Of a DNA stretch of 64,000 bases, positions 50,403 to 60,226 are shown piece after piece. The stretch comes from Ancylobacter aquaticus. Lineage in GTDB: Bacteria > Pseudomonadota > Alphaproteobacteria > Rhizobiales > Xanthobacteraceae. Numbering within the stretch: position 1 is the first letter of the stretch; each line of letters begins with the position of its first letter. The translations under genes and the position numbers were made by a program. The stretch covers positions 868,001-932,000 of the forward strand of contig NZ_SMFY01000001.1 of assembly GCF_004339465.1 (NCBI RefSeq), written 5' to 3'. Below the pieces are notes generated by a model, which saw only the letters and a list, made by a program, of their open reading frames with translations, did no database searches and had not been told where the DNA came from.

Positions 50403-51572
50403 ATGAAACTGAACCCTCCGCTTCTCGCGCTGGCGGCCGGCGCCTTCGGCATCGGCGTCACCGAGTTCGCGCCCATGGGGCTGCTGCCAGTGATCGCCAA
50501 CGATCTCGGCGTCTCCATCCCGAGCGCCGGCCTGCTGATCAGCGCCTACGCTCTCGGCGTCATGCTGGGTGCGCCGCTGATGACGCTCACCACCGGCCGG
50601 GTGCCGCGCCGGGCCTTGCTCATCGGCCTGATGGCGATCTTCACCCTTGGCAATTTGATGGCGGCGCTGTCGACCAGCTATGAGATGCTGCTGGCGGCGC
50701 GGCTGGTGACGTCGCTCAACCATGGCGCCTTCTTCGGCGTCGGTTCACTCGTGGCGGCCAGCCTCGTGCCGGAAAACCGGCGCGCCGGCGCCGTGGCGGC
50801 GATGTTCATGGGCCTCACCATCGCCAATGTCGTCGGCGTGCCGCTGGCGACCTGGGCTGGCGATGTGGTCGGCTGGCGCGCCGCCTTCTGGGGCATCGCC
50901 GTGCTCGGCCTCATTGCGATGGCGGCGCTGCGCGCAACGCTGCCGGATGTGGCGGCCGATACCGGCGGGGACATGGTGTCCGAGCTGAAGGTGCTGGGCC
51001 GCGGGCCGGTGCTGCTGGCGCTCGCGCTGACCGTTATCAGTTCAACCGCCATGTTCACCGTCTTCACCTATATCGCGCCGATTCTGCAGCAGGAGACCGG
51101 CGCGTCGATCGGCTTCGTCACGGCGATGCTGGTGACCTACGGCGTCGGCCTCACCGTCGGCAACTGGCTGGGCGGCCGCTTCGCCGACCGTTCGGTCGAC
51201 CGCACGCTGATCGTCACGCTGGCGGCGTTGACCTTGCTTCTCGTCGGGTTCGTGCTGGCGATGCCGTTCGCCGTGCCGACCGTGGTGGTGATCTTCCTCT
51301 GGGGCGTGGCGAGCTTCGCGCTCGTGCCGCCCTTGCAGATGCGGGTGATGGAAGCCGCCTCGGACGCGCCGAACCTTGCCTCGGCGGTGAATATCGGCGC
51401 CTTCAACCTCGGCAATGCCATCGGCGCGGCGCTGGGCGGCGCGGTGATCGCTGGCGGGCTGGGCTATCCCGCCGTGGCGCTGGCCGGTGCGGCGGCGGCG
51501 GCCTCCGGCCTCGCGCTGGTGCTGGCAATGGTTCGGCGCCGCCGGACTGTCATGGCCTGCGGGCTGCCCTGA
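50403..51572 (+). CDS. MFS transporter (AraJ/YdhP-like)
   Basis: A 389-residue, 12-helix major facilitator protein, probably a drug or sugar effluxer. Hallmarks: GVTEFAPMGLLPVIANDLGV at helix 1, APLMTLTTGRVPRRALL in the loop between helices 2 and 3, and GWRAAFWGIAVLG in the middle. The last ten residues (RRRTVMACGLP) overlap the 3' end of a truncated integrase gene on the other strand, so the C-terminus may have been altered at an element boundary. Confidence 0.9.
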   Translation: MKLNPPLLALAAGAFGIGVTEFAPMGLLPVIANDLGVSIPSAGLLISAYALGVMLGAPLMTLTTGRVPRRALLIGLMAIFTLGNLMAALSTSYEMLLAARLVTSLNHGAFFGVGSLVAASLVPENRRAGAVAAMFMGLTIANVVGVPLATWAGDVVGWRAAFWGIAVLGLIAMAALRATLPDVAADTGGDMVSELKVLGRGPVLLALALTVISSTAMFTVFTYIAPILQQETGASIGFVTAMLVTYGVGLTVGNWLGGRFADRSVDRTLIVTLAALTLLLVGFVLAMPFAVPTVVVIFLWGVASFALVPPLQMRVMEAASDAPNLASAVNIGAFNLGNAIGAALGGAVIAGGLGYPAVALAGAAAAASGLALVLAMVRRRRTVMACGLP

Positions 51573-52287
51573 CCGGAGCCACCGGCTGGGCTGTCGGTGC
51601 GTACGGTGCTCCGAACCTGTCGGCTTTGGGGTCGGGGCTGTAGTCGCCGCCTGCGTTATTGGAGAGCCGGACGGTCGCCTGATTGTAGGCGAGGCCGACT
51701 TGGAAGAGCAGTTCAGCGCGGCTCTTCTCGTCGACGACAAGGCCGTTGCGGGCGAGAACCTGATCGGCAACCACTCCGAAACGCTGCTCCAGGGCGCGCA
51801 GCCGCCGCTCCTCCTTCGTCTCGATGCGGAGAGGCCAGTCCCGTCCGAGGGGCTGACCGGCCAACGCCGTGGCGTTCACGATCATGGCCACGTCCCACGG
51901 CTCGATGGGGCCAGGATCGTCCTCATGCTTTTCCACAAGCATCCGGTAGGCCTCCCCAGCCAGCGCAAGGGTCTGCTTGTGTGTCAGGGTGGTGAGGGTG
52001 CCGCTTCTGAGGGCGCTGAATACCCGCTCCAGGTGCGCCACCGCGACGGCCTGCCGCTGTTTGGCTTCCGTGGGCTCCGATGTGCCCAAAGAAAAGCGGA
52101 TGGACTGGGTCTTCTCGCTGACCTTGATGGAGACGAAGGCGTCCCCACGGGGCACCTCAAGGGTCATTCCCGCGAGGCGGGTCTTGAGGTCCTTGGGGAT
52201 GCGCAGGACAAACTGAGGATTTCGGGTGTCGCTGCGACGCACCGGACGAACCAGCCGGAAGAGCATTGTTACACGGTCCTGTATCAC
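51550..52287 (-). pseudogene. Truncated DUF6538-type phage integrase
   Basis: A 245-codon frame that matches only the N-terminal half of integrases with a DUF6538 domain: NPQFVLRIPKDLKTRL and IRFSLGTSEPTEAKQRQAVA, then a helical middle and the linker-like GGDYSPDPKADRFGAP. The catalytic tyrosine-recombinase domain (Arg, HxxR, Tyr) is absent; the frame ends inside the 3' end of the MFS gene. Full-length relatives are much longer. It is therefore a remnant of an earlier element just outside the left end of the present island. Confidence 0.75.
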
Positions 52288-52353: not shown

Positions 52354-52374
52354 TGGTGCCAGGAGAGGACTCGA
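52354..52374. repeat. attL: displaced tRNA-Leu 3' end copy
   Basis: Twenty-one bases that match 60142-60163 except for one missing C in the CCC run (GGTGCCAGGAGAGGACTCGA here). Same orientation as the tRNA copy. The single-base loss suggests the left site has drifted since integration. Confidence 0.8.
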
Positions 52375-52427
52375 CTGAAACGAGTAATGCCTTGGAGAAT
52401 AACGAAAAAATTCAGGAAATTTTAGTA

Positions 52428-52450
52428 GATGCCCCCAAAAATACCCCCAA
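52428..52450. repeat. Left arm-type integrase site candidate
   Basis: Two CCCCC blocks around an A-rich centre (GCCCCCAAAAATACCCCC core). It matches 60008-60030 in 22 of 23 bases, same orientation. Such repeats just inside both ends suit arm sites bound by the integrase N-terminal domain. The surrounding 52375-52501 is AT-rich. Confidence 0.65.
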
Positions 52451-52501
52451 GCGATTGACCCTTCCTCGATAATCTTGAGCGGCAGTCAGTCAATGCGGGC
52501 T

Positions 52502-55500
52502 TCAATCCTCGTCATCTTCGCCGCCGTCGTCTGCCTCGTCATCTATTCCCATCATCTCCAAGAGGCCCCCAGCCGTGCTGACTTTTCCAGGAGCTAGCCG
52601 CTCTTCCGGCTTGGGCGTCGGCAATTCGGCAGCTGTAAAGCACGGGCCGGCTACGACCTCGTCGAGCACCTTTTCGAGCTCCGGCTCCATTGCAAGCGTC
52701 GCCTCCAGAACCCATAGCAGTTCGAGAAGTTCGTCGCTCATTCGCGCTGTCCAGCGTTCGGGGCGGATTTCATCCAGTGGCGAGGATTTCTTGCCGGCCC
52801 GCTTCTTCATCCGGTAGTCGAGCCATGACTGAACGACCTTGAGGCCTGAGACTTCGAATTCCCACACCTGAGGCGCCACGGGGCCAAAACGGCCATCGCC
52901 GACGAGGATTTCCTGCGCCTTATCATCGTATTCATTCTTTTCGGGGTAGTTTGCAGGACCGTCCGACACGCCCTTGATAATCTTGGCCGTGCCGGGAGGG
53001 ATTTCGTCGCCGCGCCCATCGCCTTGAAACCGTTCGGCGTAGGTTTGCAGCCAAATAAGCTTCCGGCCGAGTTTGGCAGCTTTGATAAAGGTCGCGCCGT
53101 CCTTGGTTATAGGTATCCTAGTGCCAGGTATTTCGAGCTCGTTCCAGAACCGATGAGTATAGGATTGCCCGCCGAGAACGGCATAGACATAAGCCGCAAG
53201 GTCCTCTGCCGTGGGTACAGTGCCAAAGCCCCTGCCAAGCGCGTCCAGTAGGCCAGCGGTGATGTTCGGGCTGGTAGCGGCGGCATCGCGATATAGGGGT
53301 ATTACGTCTTTTCCACCGAAAGAGCCCCGGAAGTGATGTAGGTCAGGCACAGAGCCTGAGGCAATAATACCTTGCCCAGAACCGAGCGCTTCGGTTGCGA
53401 GTGCGGTCAGGTAAAGCTGTTTGGATCCCTGCAAGCGCCACAGAACCTCGCCCATCCGGTCATTGAATCGAATGTCTTCAATTGCATAATGCCGGTCGAA
53501 AGATCGAAACGCATAGGGCGAAATCTTTGGCACCAACGCGCCCGGCTTCAAGCTGGAAATAATCGGCAAGGCCAGTCCTGATTCGTGGTCTCGGTACTGG
53601 CGTTCAATCTTCCGATACTTGTTGTTTTTGAAATGCTTTGCGCGTGAATCGCCCGTTTCGCCGAGCAGTTTGGCCCACCGCCGACCGATCAGTTCCTGTG
53701 TCTCGGCGATCGGCCAGGGCCTACCGAACTTCGATCCGCTTCTCTGATAGGGGAACAGATCTATGAGCATCGGCCACTGGAAGAAGTCCCCCTTTCCAAG
53801 CGGCAGAAACGGTTTTTGCCAATCATTCGGGCACTCGCGCCACGAGATACCCGCAAAGGACGCGATGCCGTCTAACTGCTTTAACTTGTTCTCGCGAGTC
53901 GCGCCGTCGATCTTCGCATAACGGACCTTGGCGGGCGTGTCGGGCGTGGGTTTGGCGCCGCGAACGCCTATGGCAATGGCGACGGGCGTCTGTATGTTGA
54001 AGACATTCGGGGTCTTGCGGGTCCCGAGGTTGTCGCCGCCCAGGTCGATGATCCAGATTTCATCGAAAGTGCGCCGCATCACCTCGCGCACGCCCACGAA
54101 CCCCGGACCGGCCAGATAGCTCGACGCGGTGATGAAGGTGACGATTCCGCCGCATGTCTGCTGCTCGAACAGCCGCCAAAGAGCCCAGCGCCAGAAATAA
54201 ACATAGTCATTGTAGAGGTTCTTGAGGTGAACCCCTGCGCCGGCCTTCGTAGCGGGTTCGGTGAAGTCGACAAGAATAGGCCTCTGCCGGATGTTTTCCA
54301 ATGCATCGGTGCCAGGCAAAAATCGACCTTGCGCGCCTTGATCCCCGAAGCGGACCCAGCCTCCCTTCCGCTGAGTGGTCGTGTCGCCTTCTTCGATGTT
54401 CTGCCGATCATAGGGCGGGTTGCCTAGACAGACGAGAATATCGCCCTCCTGCTTCACCTTCCGCGCCGCCTCGTGTTCCTGCGTCAGTGCCTTGTGTGTC
54501 AGGTCCAGGCCGCCCGGTGGCGCCTTGTTGGGGCTTTCCAGCGTATCCGCTAGATAGATTTTCAACCTCTGAGCAAGTTTTTCCTCGGGCTCACCAGCGG
54601 CGGCTTTCGCGTCGTTCATCGCGCCTTCGAGCGCTTGCGTAAGCCGCAGATGCGCGACGGCATAAGGTCCGACTAGGACCTCAAAGCCGTACATGTTTTC
54701 GGCCATCTGACGGGCGCGGGCTGCCACCGCGCCGGGACCGGAACGGGCGCGGACTTTCTCCAAACCGTGTTTGACTGCCGCAACGGGATAAGTGCCGGTG
54801 CCCACTGCGGGGTCGAGAAACACAACGCCGTCGTCGGCGAAGCCCAGCTTCTTGCCGAACCGCTTTTCCAGCAGCTCCGAGGCCAAGCGGACCTGTAATT
54901 CAACCACCTCGCGCGGGGTGTAATAGACCCCGTAATCCTTGCGCAGCTTCGGGTCGTAGGCTGCGAGAAAATCTTCGTAAAAATAGAGCCAAAGATCAGG
55001 TTTGGATTTTAGGAAATCGTGCGGATCGAGGGCTTCAAGCGAGCGTTGCAGCAACTCAAACCCAACAGCCAGCTCCTCGCGCGCCGCTTTCTGGCCAAGC
55101 AATTCCAGCGTTCTAGCCAACAGGCCGTTGTTCGTATCCAGCGTTTTGGCGGCTTCCACAGGGTCCAGTTTGGCCGCGCCGGAAAGGCGGGCCAGTAGCA
55201 TGGCATAGGTCACGGTTTGGGCGTAGGCATCCGCAAACTTCGCATCATCGGATTCGGGAAAGAAGAACTGCCGCCATTCGTTGGCGAGAAGCTCGACGGC
55301 TGATCCTTTGAGGAGGAGAGAAGCCTCGACCTCCGTGCGCAGGAAGCGCGTCAGTGGGGCAAGATAGTTGGCCAGGCCTGAAGGGTTGTGCGGGACAATC
55401 GGCTTCCAACTGAGAAAGGAGCGAAACAAGCGCTCCAGCGCCTCGGCATCGGCCTTCGTCGTGGCTGCTTTTCCCTTTTGGGTCGGGTCGTCGTGCAGCC

Positions 55501-55897
55501 GCACGATCGGTTGTCCGTCCACGCGTTCGCCTGCACGATAGAGCGCCCAGTCGCGCCCGTCTGTGTAGATCAGGTTCGGCAGCCCCTTGAGCTTTTCCCA
55601 CTGTTCCTTGTTGTGCTTTCCGGTCAAGCGGGGCGCATCGGCGCCAAGACCCGGAGCCTTCAATTCGATATAGCCACAGATCAGCCCACCCACATAAACC
55701 GCAATATCGGGCCGAACCTTGTGTTCCGAAAGGTGGGTTTCTGTCCGGGTCTCTACGGTGATCCCGTAGGATGTACCGGCGGATTTCAGCAGTTCAGCGA
55801 CGACGGGCTTAAGCTGGTCTTCAGGTGACGCAGAGCCAGGAAGGGCGAATTTGGCCTTCAGGGCATCGGCAAATTGCTCAAGAGTCACCAGTTTCAT
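52502..55897 (-). CDS. Single-chain type ISP/IIG-like restriction-modification enzyme
   Basis: About 1131 residues. Residues 1-100 look like a PD-(D/E)xK nuclease (RPDIAVYVGG, Asp64; GYIELKAPG, Glu78 and Lys80). Residues about 320-620 are an N6-adenine methyltransferase with SAM motif LDPAVGTGTYPV (from Asp362), YYTPREVVELQV ahead of it and catalytic NPPY at 493-496. The rest holds a target-recognition part and a C-terminal segment (AYVYAVLGGQSYTHRFWNEL, GRKLIWLQTYAERF) like the type ISP specificity domain. There is no helicase/translocase domain, unlike true type ISP enzymes. ATG 55897 starts the conserved region. It ends with an acidic tail (DDEADDGGEDDED). Likely methylates and cuts DNA as island-borne defence. 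Confidence 0.82.
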   Translation of the reverse strand: MKLVTLEQFADALKAKFALPGSASPEDQLKPVVAELLKSAGTSYGITVETRTETHLSEHKVRPDIAVYVGGLICGYIELKAPGLGADAPRLTGKHNKEQWEKLKGLPNLIYTDGRDWALYRAGERVDGQPIVRLHDDPTQKGKAATTKADAEALERLFRSFLSWKPIVPHNPSGLANYLAPLTRFLRTEVEASLLLKGSAVELLANEWRQFFFPESDDAKFADAYAQTVTYAMLLARLSGAAKLDPVEAAKTLDTNNGLLARTLELLGQKAAREELAVGFELLQRSLEALDPHDFLKSKPDLWLYFYEDFLAAYDPKLRKDYGVYYTPREVVELQVRLASELLEKRFGKKLGFADDGVVFLDPAVGTGTYPVAAVKHGLEKVRARSGPGAVAARARQMAENMYGFEVLVGPYAVAHLRLTQALEGAMNDAKAAAGEPEEKLAQRLKIYLADTLESPNKAPPGGLDLTHKALTQEHEAARKVKQEGDILVCLGNPPYDRQNIEEGDTTTQRKGGWVRFGDQGAQGRFLPGTDALENIRQRPILVDFTEPATKAGAGVHLKNLYNDYVYFWRWALWRLFEQQTCGGIVTFITASSYLAGPGFVGVREVMRRTFDEIWIIDLGGDNLGTRKTPNVFNIQTPVAIAIGVRGAKPTPDTPAKVRYAKIDGATRENKLKQLDGIASFAGISWRECPNDWQKPFLPLGKGDFFQWPMLIDLFPYQRSGSKFGRPWPIAETQELIGRRWAKLLGETGDSRAKHFKNNKYRKIERQYRDHESGLALPIISSLKPGALVPKISPYAFRSFDRHYAIEDIRFNDRMGEVLWRLQGSKQLYLTALATEALGSGQGIIASGSVPDLHHFRGSFGGKDVIPLYRDAAATSPNITAGLLDALGRGFGTVPTAEDLAAYVYAVLGGQSYTHRFWNELEIPGTRIPITKDGATFIKAAKLGRKLIWLQTYAERFQGDGRGDEIPPGTAKIIKGVSDGPANYPEKNEYDDKAQEILVGDGRFGPVAPQVWEFEVSGLKVVQSWLDYRMKKRAGKKSSPLDEIRPERWTARMSDELLELLWVLEATLAMEPELEKVLDEVVAGPCFTAAELPTPKPEERLAPGKVSTAGGLLEMMGIDDEADDGGEDDED

Positions 55898-56030
55898 TTC
55901 CGCCCCCGATACCGCCTGCACGAATCCAAGCAATATCAGCAGGGCGGGCGGCGAGGAATTTTTTCGTTCGATCGGTAAGTTGGCGACATGGTTAAGAAAC
56001 GTCAACCCGGCTGTGGGCATGGCTCCAGGT

Positions 56031-57134
56031 TCAGCCTGTGGTCAACGCACCATGCCGCGCCAGCAGCGCCGCCATTTCCCGCGCCAGCGCCTCGCCCTGC
56101 GGCCTTTCCCCAGCCATTGCCCCGATCACCTCGCCCTGCCGGTGCGGGTCGATCCGACCGTAGCTGTTGAGGGTGGTGGCGATGTTGTCGTGGCCGAAAT
56201 TCTGGCTCCAGGCGCGCAGTTCCTCCGGCGTGCGGCACATGGTCTGCGCGAGGTGGCCAAGCGTGTGGCGGAAGGAGTGTGGGGGAAAATAGGGCAGGCC
56301 GGCGCGGGTGAAGGCCTGCTTAAAGATCGCGCGTATCGGCGAGGCGTCGCTCCAGTGCGCCCGGTCGATGCCCTGCGGCGCGAAGGCGAGGTTCGCGCCC
56401 TGTCCGATGCGGGTGCGTGGAAAGAGCGGATCGGTCGGGCCGAACAGATGCACCTCGCGCAGTTCGCGCACCCAATCCGCCACGGTGGCGGCGAGGTCGT
56501 CGCCGACGGGGAAGAAATAGGTGGCGATGGCCTTGGCGAATTTGGTCTCGACCGTGTTCGGGTCCTGCCGCACCAGCGGCGGCGATTTGGCGAGGTCGAG
56601 GTCGCGCAGGGAGAGCGAGGCCATGGCGCGGTCGCGCATGCCGGAGAGAATGGCGAAGGCGAGGAGCGCGCGGTTGCGGCGGTCCATGGCCGTCTCTTCC
56701 GGCATGGCGGCGATGGTCGCGCGAATCTGCTCCAGGCTCGGATAGTCGCGCAGCTTCGGCGCCTTCGCCTTGGCGGCGTCCTTCCGCGAGGGGTTGAGAT
56801 AGTCGATATCAGGAAGATGCAGCCGCGACTTGAAGCCGGGGCGCCAGGCGAGCCAGAGGAAGAATTCCTTCACGGCCGTGAGCGTGGCCGTCTGCGTCGC
56901 CGCACTCAGGGGCTCGCCGCTGCGCGCGCCTGCCGTCTCGGCGAGGCGCTGCTTGAAAGCAATGGCTTGCTCGCGCCGGAAGGTTTTGAAGTCGCGCCAG
57001 CCGGTGCTGGTCTCGAAACGCAAAAGCGCCTTGCGCACCATGTCGAGGCTCGCCTCGCTCTTGCCCTTCGCTTCCTTCAGATAATGGATATACTCACGTT
57101 TCAGCCGCTCATTGCCGGCATTGATCCGAGCCAT
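56031..57134 (-). CDS. Tyrosine recombinase
   Basis: A 367-residue site-specific recombinase. The N-terminal SAM-like core-binding domain (residues about 8-115) is followed by the catalytic domain: first Arg in LSGMRDRAMASL, HxxR in PPHSFRHTLGHL, and the nucleophile Tyr in ATTLNSYGRI with FGHDN ahead of it. No arm-binding domain of the P4 type, so it is a different class from the integrase at 58.8 kb. It lies 3 bp after the HTH gene and 133 bp ahead of the restriction gene. Confidence 0.9.
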   Translation of the reverse strand: MARINAGNERLKREYIHYLKEAKGKSEASLDMVRKALLRFETSTGWRDFKTFRREQAIAFKQRLAETAGARSGEPLSAATQTATLTAVKEFFLWLAWRPGFKSRLHLPDIDYLNPSRKDAAKAKAPKLRDYPSLEQIRATIAAMPEETAMDRRNRALLAFAILSGMRDRAMASLSLRDLDLAKSPPLVRQDPNTVETKFAKAIATYFFPVGDDLAATVADWVRELREVHLFGPTDPLFPRTRIGQGANLAFAPQGIDRAHWSDASPIRAIFKQAFTRAGLPYFPPHSFRHTLGHLAQTMCRTPEELRAWSQNFGHDNIATTLNSYGRIDPHRQGEVIGAMAGERPQGEALAREMAALLARHGALTTG

Positions 57135-57137
57135 CTT

Positions 57138-57617
57138 CTACTCTCCTTTCAGATCACCATTCAGACTGGGGGCGGTACACCCGTTCAGTCTTTCCGGTGC
57201 TAGCGTCTGAAGGTCGTAGCTTTCCGCCAGCGCCGGCAGCGCCGTGCGGCGTACCGTCCGGTGCATGGGCGTGCCGCAGGTGGCGCACAGGCCGGTGAGG
57301 GCGGCGACCGTCGCCGTGCGGTGGCGCACGTCCACCATGCCGGCCGCCGCCCGTCGCGGGGCGCGGCAGCGGAAGCAGAAGAACTCGTCCGGCGCGCAGG
57401 CATTGCGCCGTGCCTTCCGCCGCTTGGTCAGGAAGGCCTTCAGCTCGGACCCGTGAACGACGATGGGGCGCACATCGTCGAGGGGCTGGAGCCCATCCTT
57501 CAGCCACCGCCGCACCGTGTTGCGGTGGGTGCCGAGGAGCTTGGCCATTTCGGCGACGTCATAGGTTGCGGCCTGCTTCACCCGTTGCACGGGAAGGCGC
57601 CGCTGCGGCCGTTTCAT
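57138..57617 (-). CDS. HTH protein with zinc-ribbon-like cysteines
   Basis: A protein of about 159 residues. It begins with a MerR/excisionase-like HTH (TYDVAEMAKLLGTHRNTVRR, WLKDGLQPLDD) that could bind recombination sites. The second half has two CxxC pairs (FFCFRCRAP and LCATCGTP) that could bind zinc. Start is ATG 57617 or ATG 57629; the longer frame overlaps the AlpA-like gene. Directly upstream of the recombinase (3-bp gap), so probably its directionality or targeting partner (inference). Confidence 0.75.
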   Translation of the reverse strand: MKRPQRRLPVQRVKQAATYDVAEMAKLLGTHRNTVRRWLKDGLQPLDDVRPIVVHGSELKAFLTKRRKARRNACAPDEFFCFRCRAPRRAAAGMVDVRHRTATVAALTGLCATCGTPMHRTVRRTALPALAESYDLQTLAPERLNGCTAPSLNGDLKGE

Positions 57618-57633
57618 CCCTGCCGGCATGCGC

Positions 57634-57861
57634 TCAGGCGCTCCGGTGGCTGGCAATGCGTCCGGCAATCCAGGCGTCGATCTCGCCCTCGATCCAGGCA
57701 ACGCGGCGGTCAGAGAGGGCGATGGGTTCGGGAAAGCGGCCCTCGCGCATATAGGCATAGATAGTGCTGCGGCTGAGGCAGGTGCGGGCCTTGACCTGAT
57801 CGAGGCGAATGAGGATGGCGCGGCCGGTGGTCGCGGTCGTCTCAGTCTTAATGGCGCTCAT
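57634..57861 (-). CDS. AlpA-like regulator/excisionase
   Basis: A 75-residue protein of the AlpA/excisionase type: ILIRLDQVKARTCLSRSTIY, then YMREGRFPEPIALSDRRVAW and EGEIDAWIAGRI. These small winged-HTH proteins activate integrase genes or direct excision in P4-like elements. ATG 57861 has GGAGACGG ahead; an upstream ATG at 57888 lacks a binding site. Confidence 0.85.
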   Translation of the reverse strand: MSAIKTETTATTGRAILIRLDQVKARTCLSRSTIYAYMREGRFPEPIALSDRRVAWIEGEIDAWIAGRIASHRSA

Positions 57862-57994
57862 GGCGTCCGTCTCCGTTCGTTGGAACATAGACGGAACAAT
57901 GAGCGGATGCGCCAGGCGAAAATAGCCGGGCGGATTGCAGAAAACCCTGCCACTTCAACGGCTAGCTGCATGGGGTGAGTTATAGCGAACAAGG

Positions 57995-58684
57995 TTAGAA
58001 GGGTATTTCGTCCTCCTCCCCCCATGTGATGGCCGTCAGGGGAGCGTTCTCGACAACCTTACCCGTGGTTTGCCCGAAGGCGGGGGAGGGTTGCGCCGAA
58101 ACGGTAGGGGTAGCGGGCGCGCCGCCCTTCTGATTCCAGTTCGCTACCTTGGCGATTTCCTCTATTCCGGTCTTATTCGGCGAGCCGTCCTTGTTGACGA
58201 GACCGTATTCGGCGGCGTGCTCCGTGAGCCACGTCTCCAGCGCCTGCTTGGGTGACTTGCCGCGCCGGAGAGCGGAATCTGACACCACCGCTTCCCAGGC
58301 GGCATTTCCGGCCGCCAGCTTCGGCGCGTAGAATTTGCTGAATTGCTGCGAAGGGCTCTTCTTGGTCGGCGAATAGGGCCCGAAGACCGTTTGCTTCATG
58401 CCGCGAATCCAGAACCATGATTTGATCGACGTAATGTCAAACAGGGTTAGTACCCAGTCGCGATCTCCCAATTCATCGAAGGCGGCGATGCGCGGCCACA
58501 GGTCTTCAGTACGAACAGCATTCTTGATGCCAACGACGTGAACCGTCGTTCTGTCCTGCAATTCTTGCGGAAGGCCCTGATAGCCAAGGCGCTCCAGAGG
58601 TGCGGGGTCGATACCCTCCAGCAGGAGCGCAATCTGGAAGACATTCAGTGCTTCAGCTTTAATCCAGTGATCGAGTGTAGCCAT
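57995..58684 (-). CDS. Unknown protein with SSB-like acidic C-terminal tip
   Basis: A 229-residue protein I cannot place in a family. The body (residues 1-170) is mixed alpha/beta with LDHWIKAEALNVFQIALLLE at the start and FGPYSPTKKSPSQQFSKFY in the middle. A Pro/Gln/Ala-rich linker (about 185-215) leads to the last residues WGEEDEIPF. This matches the linker plus acidic DDDIPF-type tip of bacterial single-strand DNA-binding protein, which docks RecG, PriA, RecQ, exonuclease I and others. No OB-fold is recognisable. It may use host SSB partners or act at replication forks; this is inference. Lower GC than the flanks. Confidence 0.6.
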   Translation of the reverse strand: MATLDHWIKAEALNVFQIALLLEGIDPAPLERLGYQGLPQELQDRTTVHVVGIKNAVRTEDLWPRIAAFDELGDRDWVLTLFDITSIKSWFWIRGMKQTVFGPYSPTKKSPSQQFSKFYAPKLAAGNAAWEAVVSDSALRRGKSPKQALETWLTEHAAEYGLVNKDGSPNKTGIEEIAKVANWNQKGGAPATPTVSAQPSPAFGQTTGKVVENAPLTAITWGEEDEIPF

Positions 58685-58775
58685 GGTGCCTGCCGATCAT
58701 TTGAATCCGAGAAGGCATTATATCGGCAAACAAGGTCCAGTGGCATTCGAGGAGCGTCTGTCCACCAATCCGATT

Positions 58776-59978
58776 TCAGGGCTCTTTTTTGGTCGTCTTT
58801 TTTATCTGGTCGAGATAGTCCGCCCACCAGTTCATCATACGGGTGCGCTCATCCCAGTGTTCGCCGCGCGTATAGGCGCGCCGCACTTCGTTGCGCTCGG
58901 CGTGGGCGAGCTGGCGCTCGATGGCGTCGGGATTCCAGAGGCCGCTCTCGTTCAACAGGGTCGAGGCGGTGGCGCGGAAGCCGTGGGCGGTGGCAACGTC
59001 ACAGGTGAAGCCCAGCCGGCGCAGCGCGCCATTCAAGGTGTTTTCGCTGATAGGCCTATGTCCCGCGCCGATGGCCGGAAAGACAAAGGGCTGGTTGCCG
59101 GTCAGGCGGTGCAGGTCGCGCAGGATCGCCAAGGCCTGTGGCGGCAGCGGGACGCGATGCGGGCGACGCATCTTCATGCGTTCAGGCGGAATCGACCATA
59201 TCCCCTTGTCGAGGTCGAACTCCGGCCACGTCGCCAGCCGTAGCTCGCCCGGCCGGGGGAAAAGCAGAGGCATCAGGCGCAGTGCCGCCGTGCTCGCCGG
59301 TTGCCCTGTGTAACCGTCGATCGCCCGAAGCAGCGCGCCAAACTCTTTCGGCGTGGTGACGGCCGCGCGGTGCGTCACCTTCGGGGTTGTCAGAGCGTCG
59401 CGCAGGGCGAAGGTGGGGTCGTTCTCGGCGCGTGCGGTGGCGATGGCATAGCGGAACACGGCGCCGAGCGCAGCGCGCATCCGGCGCGCGGTTTCGTGCC
59501 GGCCGGTCTCCTCCACCGCCCGCAGGACTTCCAGCAATTCCTTTGCCGTGATCGTGGCGACGTCGCGCTCGCCGAGCACGGGATACGCGAAGCCCAAGAG
59601 CCACCGTCGCTTGTTCAGTGTGATATCGGCGAGGCCTTCGCGCTCCAGTTTCGCCACATGCTCTTCAGCAATCGAGCGGAACGTGTTCGCCACCGCCGCC
59701 TTGACCTTTTGCCGGGCTTCCTTCTTGACGGCGGAAGGGTCGAGGCCTTCGGCGAGTTGCCGGCGTGCCTCGGTGCGACGCTCGCGGGCTTTGGCAAGCG
59801 GGATGTCGGGATAGGCGCCGATGGCCAGCACTTTTTCGCGCCCGCCGATTCGGTATTTCAGGCGCCAGAGCCGCGAGCCGGTTGGGCTCACCAGAAGATA
59901 AAGCCCGCCGCCATCCGCCAGCTTAAAGGGCTTGGCGATCGGCTTGGCGCTGCGGATGGCCATTTCCGTGAGAGGCAA
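58776..59978 (-). CDS. P4-type integrase
   Basis: A 400-residue tyrosine integrase of the P4/DUF4102 kind. The N-terminal arm-binding domain begins LTEMAIRSAKPIAKPFKLAD with GGGLYLLVSPTGSRLWRLKY. The catalytic domain has LLFPRPGELRLATW (Arg), HGFRATASTLLNE (HxxR) and RRAYTRGEHW (Tyr). It lies 163 bp from the tRNA-Leu 3' end, so it is the enzyme most likely to have inserted this element there. Confidence 0.95.
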   Translation of the reverse strand: MPLTEMAIRSAKPIAKPFKLADGGGLYLLVSPTGSRLWRLKYRIGGREKVLAIGAYPDIPLAKARERRTEARRQLAEGLDPSAVKKEARQKVKAAVANTFRSIAEEHVAKLEREGLADITLNKRRWLLGFAYPVLGERDVATITAKELLEVLRAVEETGRHETARRMRAALGAVFRYAIATARAENDPTFALRDALTTPKVTHRAAVTTPKEFGALLRAIDGYTGQPASTAALRLMPLLFPRPGELRLATWPEFDLDKGIWSIPPERMKMRRPHRVPLPPQALAILRDLHRLTGNQPFVFPAIGAGHRPISENTLNGALRRLGFTCDVATAHGFRATASTLLNESGLWNPDAIERQLAHAERNEVRRAYTRGEHWDERTRMMNWWADYLDQIKKTTKKEP

Positions 59979-60007
59979 GGCGGCGGCCTCAGTTGGGGTT
60001 TATCTAC

Positions 60008-60030
60008 GATGCCCCCAGAAATACCCCCAA
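60008..60030. repeat. Right arm-type integrase site candidate
   Basis: Partner of 52428-52450, differing at one base (G for A in the centre). It lies between the integrase start and the tRNA, and may also overlap the integrase promoter. A 7-bp hairpin CCGGCTT/AAGCCGG follows at 60036-60059. Confidence 0.65.
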
Positions 60031-60141
60031 TTGCGCCGGCTTCCAACGGAAAAAGCCGGACCCTCCCGGAACCTATTGGCTCGGGAAGTCCAGCATTTTC
60101 AACGTTTTTCGGAAGTCTTCGGACCTTCTAAAAAGGCCTGA

Positions 60142-60163
60142 TGGTGCCCAGGAGAGGACTCGA
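60142..60163. repeat. attR core within tRNA-Leu 3' end
   Basis: The 3' terminal 22 bases of tRNA-Leu, repeated with a one-base gap at 52354-52374. The tRNA is left intact at this end, the normal outcome of P4-type integration. Confidence 0.8.
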
Positions 60164-60226
60164 ACCTCCACGGTGTTACCCACACGGACCTGAACCGTGC
60201 GCGTCTACCAATTCCGCCACCTGGGC
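60142..60226 (-). tRNA. tRNA-Leu (anticodon CAG)
   Basis: An 85-base class II tRNA with acceptor GCCCAGG/CCTGGGC, anticodon stem around TTCAGGT giving anticodon CAG, a long variable arm, T arm GGAGG-TTCGAGT-CCTCT, and encoded CCA at 60142-60144. Reads leucine codon CUG. It is the attachment site of the island on its left. Confidence 0.95.

Follow-up and report, generated by a model that had tools for sequence, protein, structure and literature searches.

The window analysed here is a 64,000-nucleotide stretch of the Ancylobacter aquaticus genome (contig NZ_SMFY01000001.1, positions 868,001 to 932,000). Within it, an element of ~7.8 kb occupies a tRNA-Leu gene (52354-60163) and is bounded by attachment repeats. 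It has a tyrosine integrase beside the tRNA gene, an AlpA protein and defence cargo (Table 1). The subject of this analysis is an open reading frame (ORF) of 229 amino acids that lies between the integrase and AlpA genes. Its C-terminal sequence (...KVVENAPLTAITWGEEDEIPF; as written out again, ...AITWGEEDEIPF) finishes with WGEEDEIPF, a close likeness of the acidic C-terminal tip (SSB-Ct) of bacterial single-stranded DNA-binding protein (SSB).

Table 1. Features of the tRNA-Leu element and parts of its 229-residue protein
Feature	Position	Strand	Basis or remark
229-residue family protein	57995..58684	minus	ORF and translation
N-terminal domain of this protein	residues 1-104		AlphaFold model
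C-terminal domain	residues 105-190		AlphaFold model
Disordered linker	residues 191-220		
SSB-Ct-like tip, WGEEDEIPF	residues 221-229		
Tip codons (WGEEDEIPF and stop)	57995..58024	minus	last 5 residues = host SSB C-terminus
Tyrosine integrase INT1 with arm-binding domain, directly upstream of the ORF	58776..59978	minus	PF13356, PF22022, PF00589
AlpA-type excisionase/regulator	57634..57888	minus	PF05930, E=1.1e-19; PHROG excisionase
Helix-turn-helix protein with Cys pairs (HTH_17), conserved module gene	57138..57758	minus	
Second tyrosine recombinase INT2, conserved module gene	56031..57134	minus	PF00589
Cargo: type ISP / IIG restriction enzyme-methyltransferase	52502..56020	minus	PF18135, E=6e-67; PADLOC REase_MTase_IIG, E=0
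Attachment repeat, integrase side, TGGTGCCCAGGAGAGGACTCGA	60142..60163		3' end of tRNA-Leu(CAG)
tRNA-Leu(CAG)	60142-60226	minus	
Attachment repeat, distal side, TGGTGCCAGGAGAGGACTCGA	52354..52374		one C shorter than the tRNA-end copy
23-bp near-terminal direct repeat, GATGCCCCCARAAATACCCCCAA	60008..60030 and 52428..52450		copies 96% identical

The host SSB ends in ...GGGDLDDEIPF, and its terminal DEIPF is identical in the 229-residue protein. We searched all six frames of the host genome (4.83 Mb, nearly complete) for [DE][DE]IPF followed by a stop codon. The pattern occurs in two places, the ORF and host SSB, and the same pattern read backwards gives no match in the six frames. The original prediction, made from the letters of the window, had recognized WGEEDEIPF as an SSB-like tip, and this is confirmed across the genome, where the ORF and SSB alone share the ending; the match is not due to chance. 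In a survey of ORFs of at least 50 residues in the ~600 kb of DNA examined, acidic-[IVLFP]PF ends are likewise limited to the 229-residue family and host SSB. Despite the identical residues, the codons differ (ATA CCC TTC TAA in the ORF and ATC CCG TTC TGA in ssb), so the ORF did not acquire its tip by recent copying from the end of ssb. The preceding linker, which had been described as Pro/Gln-rich, consists to 71% of P, G, Q, S, T, A and N, and that description is loosely right. The host also encodes a second, short SSB-domain protein without an acidic IPF tip (L053, G000:C5:63054-63350).

Homologues drawn from whole genomes, a species collection and one plasmid record are of two kinds. Proteins of the first kind stop within ~10 residues of NWxxxGGAPKTP, a strongly conserved motif. 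Those of the second kind continue with an unalignable linker, mostly of 20-45 residues, and then an acidic-IPF tip (DLDDDIPF, DLDDEIPF, DLDEDIPF, DDDDDIPF, YEDDDIPF, EVEDDPPF, SQDEDFPF, ETEEYIPF and others). Homologue L067 has nearly no linker, and its tip comes almost directly after GGAP (GGAPRQMGENSIPF). Of the 22 homologues that have an intact C-terminus and a tail of 20 residues or more, counted regardless of the last letters, 18 end in PF preceded by acidic residues (L049, one of the 18, is an ORF fragment) and one more ends in PPFL. The conservation of the tip, on which the original prediction depended, thus holds among divergent homologues. In the tip-bearing set, which unlike these 22 was selected by the motif, the Phe and Pro never vary and acidic residues account for 89-100% at positions -4 to -6; the pairwise identity at linker positions -9 to -25 is 0.04-0.14. 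Eight other genomes with tip-bearing homologues give [DE][DE]IPF-stop matches mainly in SSB and the family protein.

The distribution of the tip is uneven. On a tree of the body columns, its presence changes 8-9 times, with at least four changes on well-supported branches. Tips are found in 17 of 30 rows from Alphaproteobacteria and in 0 of 13 others (Fisher p = 4e-4, uncorrected for relatedness and with the class of metagenome rows assigned from record titles). As judged from these sequences, the tail is an optional module with several gains or losses, found in Alphaproteobacteria only, and its tip is retained selectively while the linkers diverge. We found no compensating tip on the other module proteins of tail-less elements.

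Regarding the body, the 229-residue protein has no match in Pfam (including SSB, PF00436), NCBIfam, PHROGs or PADLOC; an NCBIfam phasin match (E=0.09) is not meaningful, and a sequence search of solved structures returned nothing meaningful. None of the libraries searched describes the family. The AlphaFold model, calculated from an alignment of 45 sequences with the plasmid-record row left out, has a mean predicted local distance difference test score (pLDDT) of 85, with most of the body above 90 and the tail at 50-66. Two domains, both mostly helical, are predicted with confidence and are followed by a tail without regular structure; this confident model contains no oligonucleotide/oligosaccharide-binding (OB) fold or β-barrel. 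The absence of an OB-fold, asserted in the original prediction, is therefore borne out by both the Pfam scan and the structure prediction, which together rule out a divergent SSB. The tail of bacterial SSB consists of a poorly conserved, disordered linker and an acidic IPF tip (PMC10164576), and the 229-residue protein has both the (D/E)(D/E)IPF ending and a poorly conserved linker that is predicted to be disordered (pLDDT 50-66 over residues 181-229). The two proteins differ in the body, which is an OB-fold in SSB and two unrelated helical domains, encoded in a mobility module, in the 229-residue protein.

Structural comparison gave no strong match to the body. Foldseek returned nothing below E=1e-3, either against the PDB with the whole model and the C-terminal domain alone or among viral structures with the whole model. 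With VIA-align, residues 9-98 weakly resemble MerR-type DNA-binding domains (Z ~4) and residues 103-186 weakly resemble winged-helix proteins (Z up to 4.6); the best Z values for these fold matches, 4.0-4.6, are weak. The C-terminal domain searched alone did no better, with a best Z of 3.7 to a designed protein. This domain is basic in the 229-residue protein [isoelectric point (pI) 9.5], the N-terminal domain is acidic (pI ~5) and so is the tail (pI 4.1). With weak fold matches, a family median pI of 6.5 for the C-terminal domain and an acidic N-terminal domain, the model does no more than suggest that the body binds DNA.

The gene has a fixed place in its surroundings. The order integrase-ORF-AlpA is kept in most loci, and in nearly every one that reaches that far, and the five-gene set (integrase, ORF, AlpA, Cys-pair helix-turn-helix protein and second recombinase) is kept in ~20 loci. 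Where the flank of a sister locus is long enough, the integrase is in most cases closely preceded by a tRNA or tmRNA gene. The 229-residue gene belongs to this integrase-AlpA mobility module and not to the cargo. Its product is accordingly more likely to act in DNA transactions of the element itself than as a free-standing anti-defence factor. The slot between integrase and AlpA is filled in three loci by proteins that share the N-terminal domain only (L062:1102-1899, L063:1159-2103 and L064:1456-2112); in these, another C-terminal domain (GGRPxxYDWDSF...SKIY) takes its place and the tail is absent. A phage origin was considered and rejected, as tblastn gave no match to the family in annotated phages and the lone related viral contig (L054) is without the tail.

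We propose, with a probability of roughly 55%, that the ORF encodes an accessory mobility protein whose C-terminus imitates SSB-Ct, allowing it to dock onto host enzymes that interact with SSB. When SSB binds a partner, its terminal Phe occupies a hydrophobic pocket there, with a basic lip holding the carboxylate of this residue and a basic ridge accommodating the acidic ones; partner binding is weakened or abolished if the Phe is lost or the Pro changed (PMC10164576). Since these recognition determinants (Phe, Pro and acidic residues) are the ones that the family keeps, docking is the simplest reading. The independent occurrence of such a tip on a family of phage helicases, described below, also speaks for it. 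The two folded domains would most likely serve to position the protein at element DNA or at the integrase complex, and the tip, on its flexible linker, would enter the SSB-Ct pocket of host SSB-interacting proteins. Candidate partners are PriA, RecG, RecQ, RecO, DnaG and the clamp-loader chi subunit, which could be brought to the element during excision, circularization or copying. PriA, RecG and RecQ are encoded by the host genome. The original prediction had put forward docking of this kind, with exonuclease I among the partners. The conserved tip and the lack of an OB-fold support docking as such, rather than a particular partner or purpose; exonuclease I drops out, its family not having been found in the host genome.

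Several points weigh against this proposal. Docking is read from sequence and predicted structure, and the putative DNA-binding role of the body comes from weak fold matches with a best Z of 4.6, next to an N-terminal domain that is acidic. The tip has been lost from a few of the homologues with a tail (3 of the 22, with ends DDDLTL, DDHRL and GSDV). Many homologues in similar modules, including all of the non-alphaproteobacterial ones, are without the tail, so the tail is dispensable for the core role.

The same tip could serve to block rather than to recruit, as the original prediction also allowed. The protein would then fill the SSB-Ct pockets of host helicases and nucleases, or displace SSB, and so keep the excised element, or a competing phage, from being processed. 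The evidence from the tip is the same for such a decoy as for docking, and the element is a defence vehicle; however, a gene between integrase and AlpA is probably expressed at a low, regulated level, which would suit titration against abundant SSB poorly, and a decoy should have no need of two conserved folded domains. We consider a decoy unlikely. Since the gene is in the mobility module and the tail is carried on a conserved folded body, recruitment, whether to element DNA or to the recombination complex, seems the likelier function.

The charge of the tail allows another reading, which is less likely again. The acidic tails of SSB and Hfq have been reported to compete with DNA intramolecularly, and the tail of the 229-residue protein might similarly fold onto its own C-terminal domain, the two being acidic and basic, respectively. 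Set against this are the near-neutral family median for that domain, the prediction of the tail as a low-confidence segment without regular structure, and the fact that autoinhibition depends on charge, for which the exact IPF ending of host SSB would not be needed. A role in turnover appears more improbable still. The SSB tail can serve as a ClpXP signal in E. coli, and recognition of the tip by ClpX would give the mobility protein a short lifetime; a degron, however, has no obvious need of a long linker or of a match to host SSB, and mycobacterial SSB itself is not degraded. Least probable is a functionless tip, left by descent or chance. Some family members do lack it, but it is kept while the linkers diverge past alignment, its ending is rare genome-wide, and it has been gained or lost repeatedly on the tree.

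Compared with known systems, the docking protein that we propose has an engineered counterpart. In the chimeric PriB-SSBc (PMC8509808), as far as the portion of that report used here describes it, an SSB tail was likewise placed on a protein normally without one; the chimera was built on an OB-fold protein, whereas the 229-residue protein is natural and has a non-OB body. In the open-access literature searched, we found no report of a mobile-element protein that naturally mimics SSB-Ct, and such mimicry by a mobility protein appears to be unreported there. The element itself is of a known kind, since tRNA/tmRNA-integrated elements with an integrase, AlpA and phage-defence cargo and without transfer genes have been described (PMC12595487). 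The I23/I44/I55 islands of that account have in common with the present element a tRNA/tmRNA integrase, AlpA, direct repeats, defence cargo and no transfer genes seen. They differ in a shared 18-kb region with other core genes (YqaJ, RadC, Gp2-like), and the available part of their description makes no mention of the 229-residue protein, the helix-turn-helix protein with Cys pairs or the second recombinase. Genome maintenance in bacteria relies on SSB-Ct as its main docking signal, and how small integrative elements recruit host fork-restart and repair enzymes is a poorly understood step. A mobility protein that carries SSB-Ct would show how small elements without replication genes could do so.

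SSB-like tips also occur on other proteins, which emerged among the remaining IPF endings of related genomes. The strongest case is a superfamily 2 (SF2) helicase in a relative (L099:1-1518), which ends in ...WTGDLDDEIPF. Among its relatives on viral contigs (L111-L128), 11 of the 12 with complete ends have a final IPF preceded by one or more acidic residues, and the remaining one finishes in DDDIQF; the tips of the phage and prophage SF2 helicases include DLDDEIPF, DLDDDIPF and WDDIPF. Like the 229-residue protein, these are independent, non-OB mobile-element proteins with SSB-like tips; they differ in being phage-borne helicases with an unrelated body. It is possible, though we hold it tentatively and at somewhat below an even chance, that alphaproteobacterial mobile elements and phages repeatedly append the host SSB tip to unrelated proteins and so hijack the SSB hub. 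This would be a general, so far unnamed route for mobile DNA into host replication and repair, and an acidic-IPF end without an OB-fold would serve as a search key for mobile-element and defence proteins that tap the hub. A Shedu (SduA) nuclease (L069:421-1518) ends in SDFEEEIPF and a CAP12/Pycsar TIR-domain effector (L091:685-1518) in TFDDEIPF; both could be chance, because the reversed control matches a few times across 21 relatives.

The remaining observations concern the cargo and the ends of the element. Sister elements carry mostly defence cargo, namely type I, IIG or III restriction-modification systems and Cas9, and one (L012) carries an efflux gene. The Cas9 gene lies directly after the second recombinase in its element (L024:8487-11639). 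The 23-bp direct repeat just inside both ends of the present element is a possible integrase arm site. Just outside the distal attachment repeat is a gene for a DUF6538 protein (51550-52287), possibly a remnant of another element.
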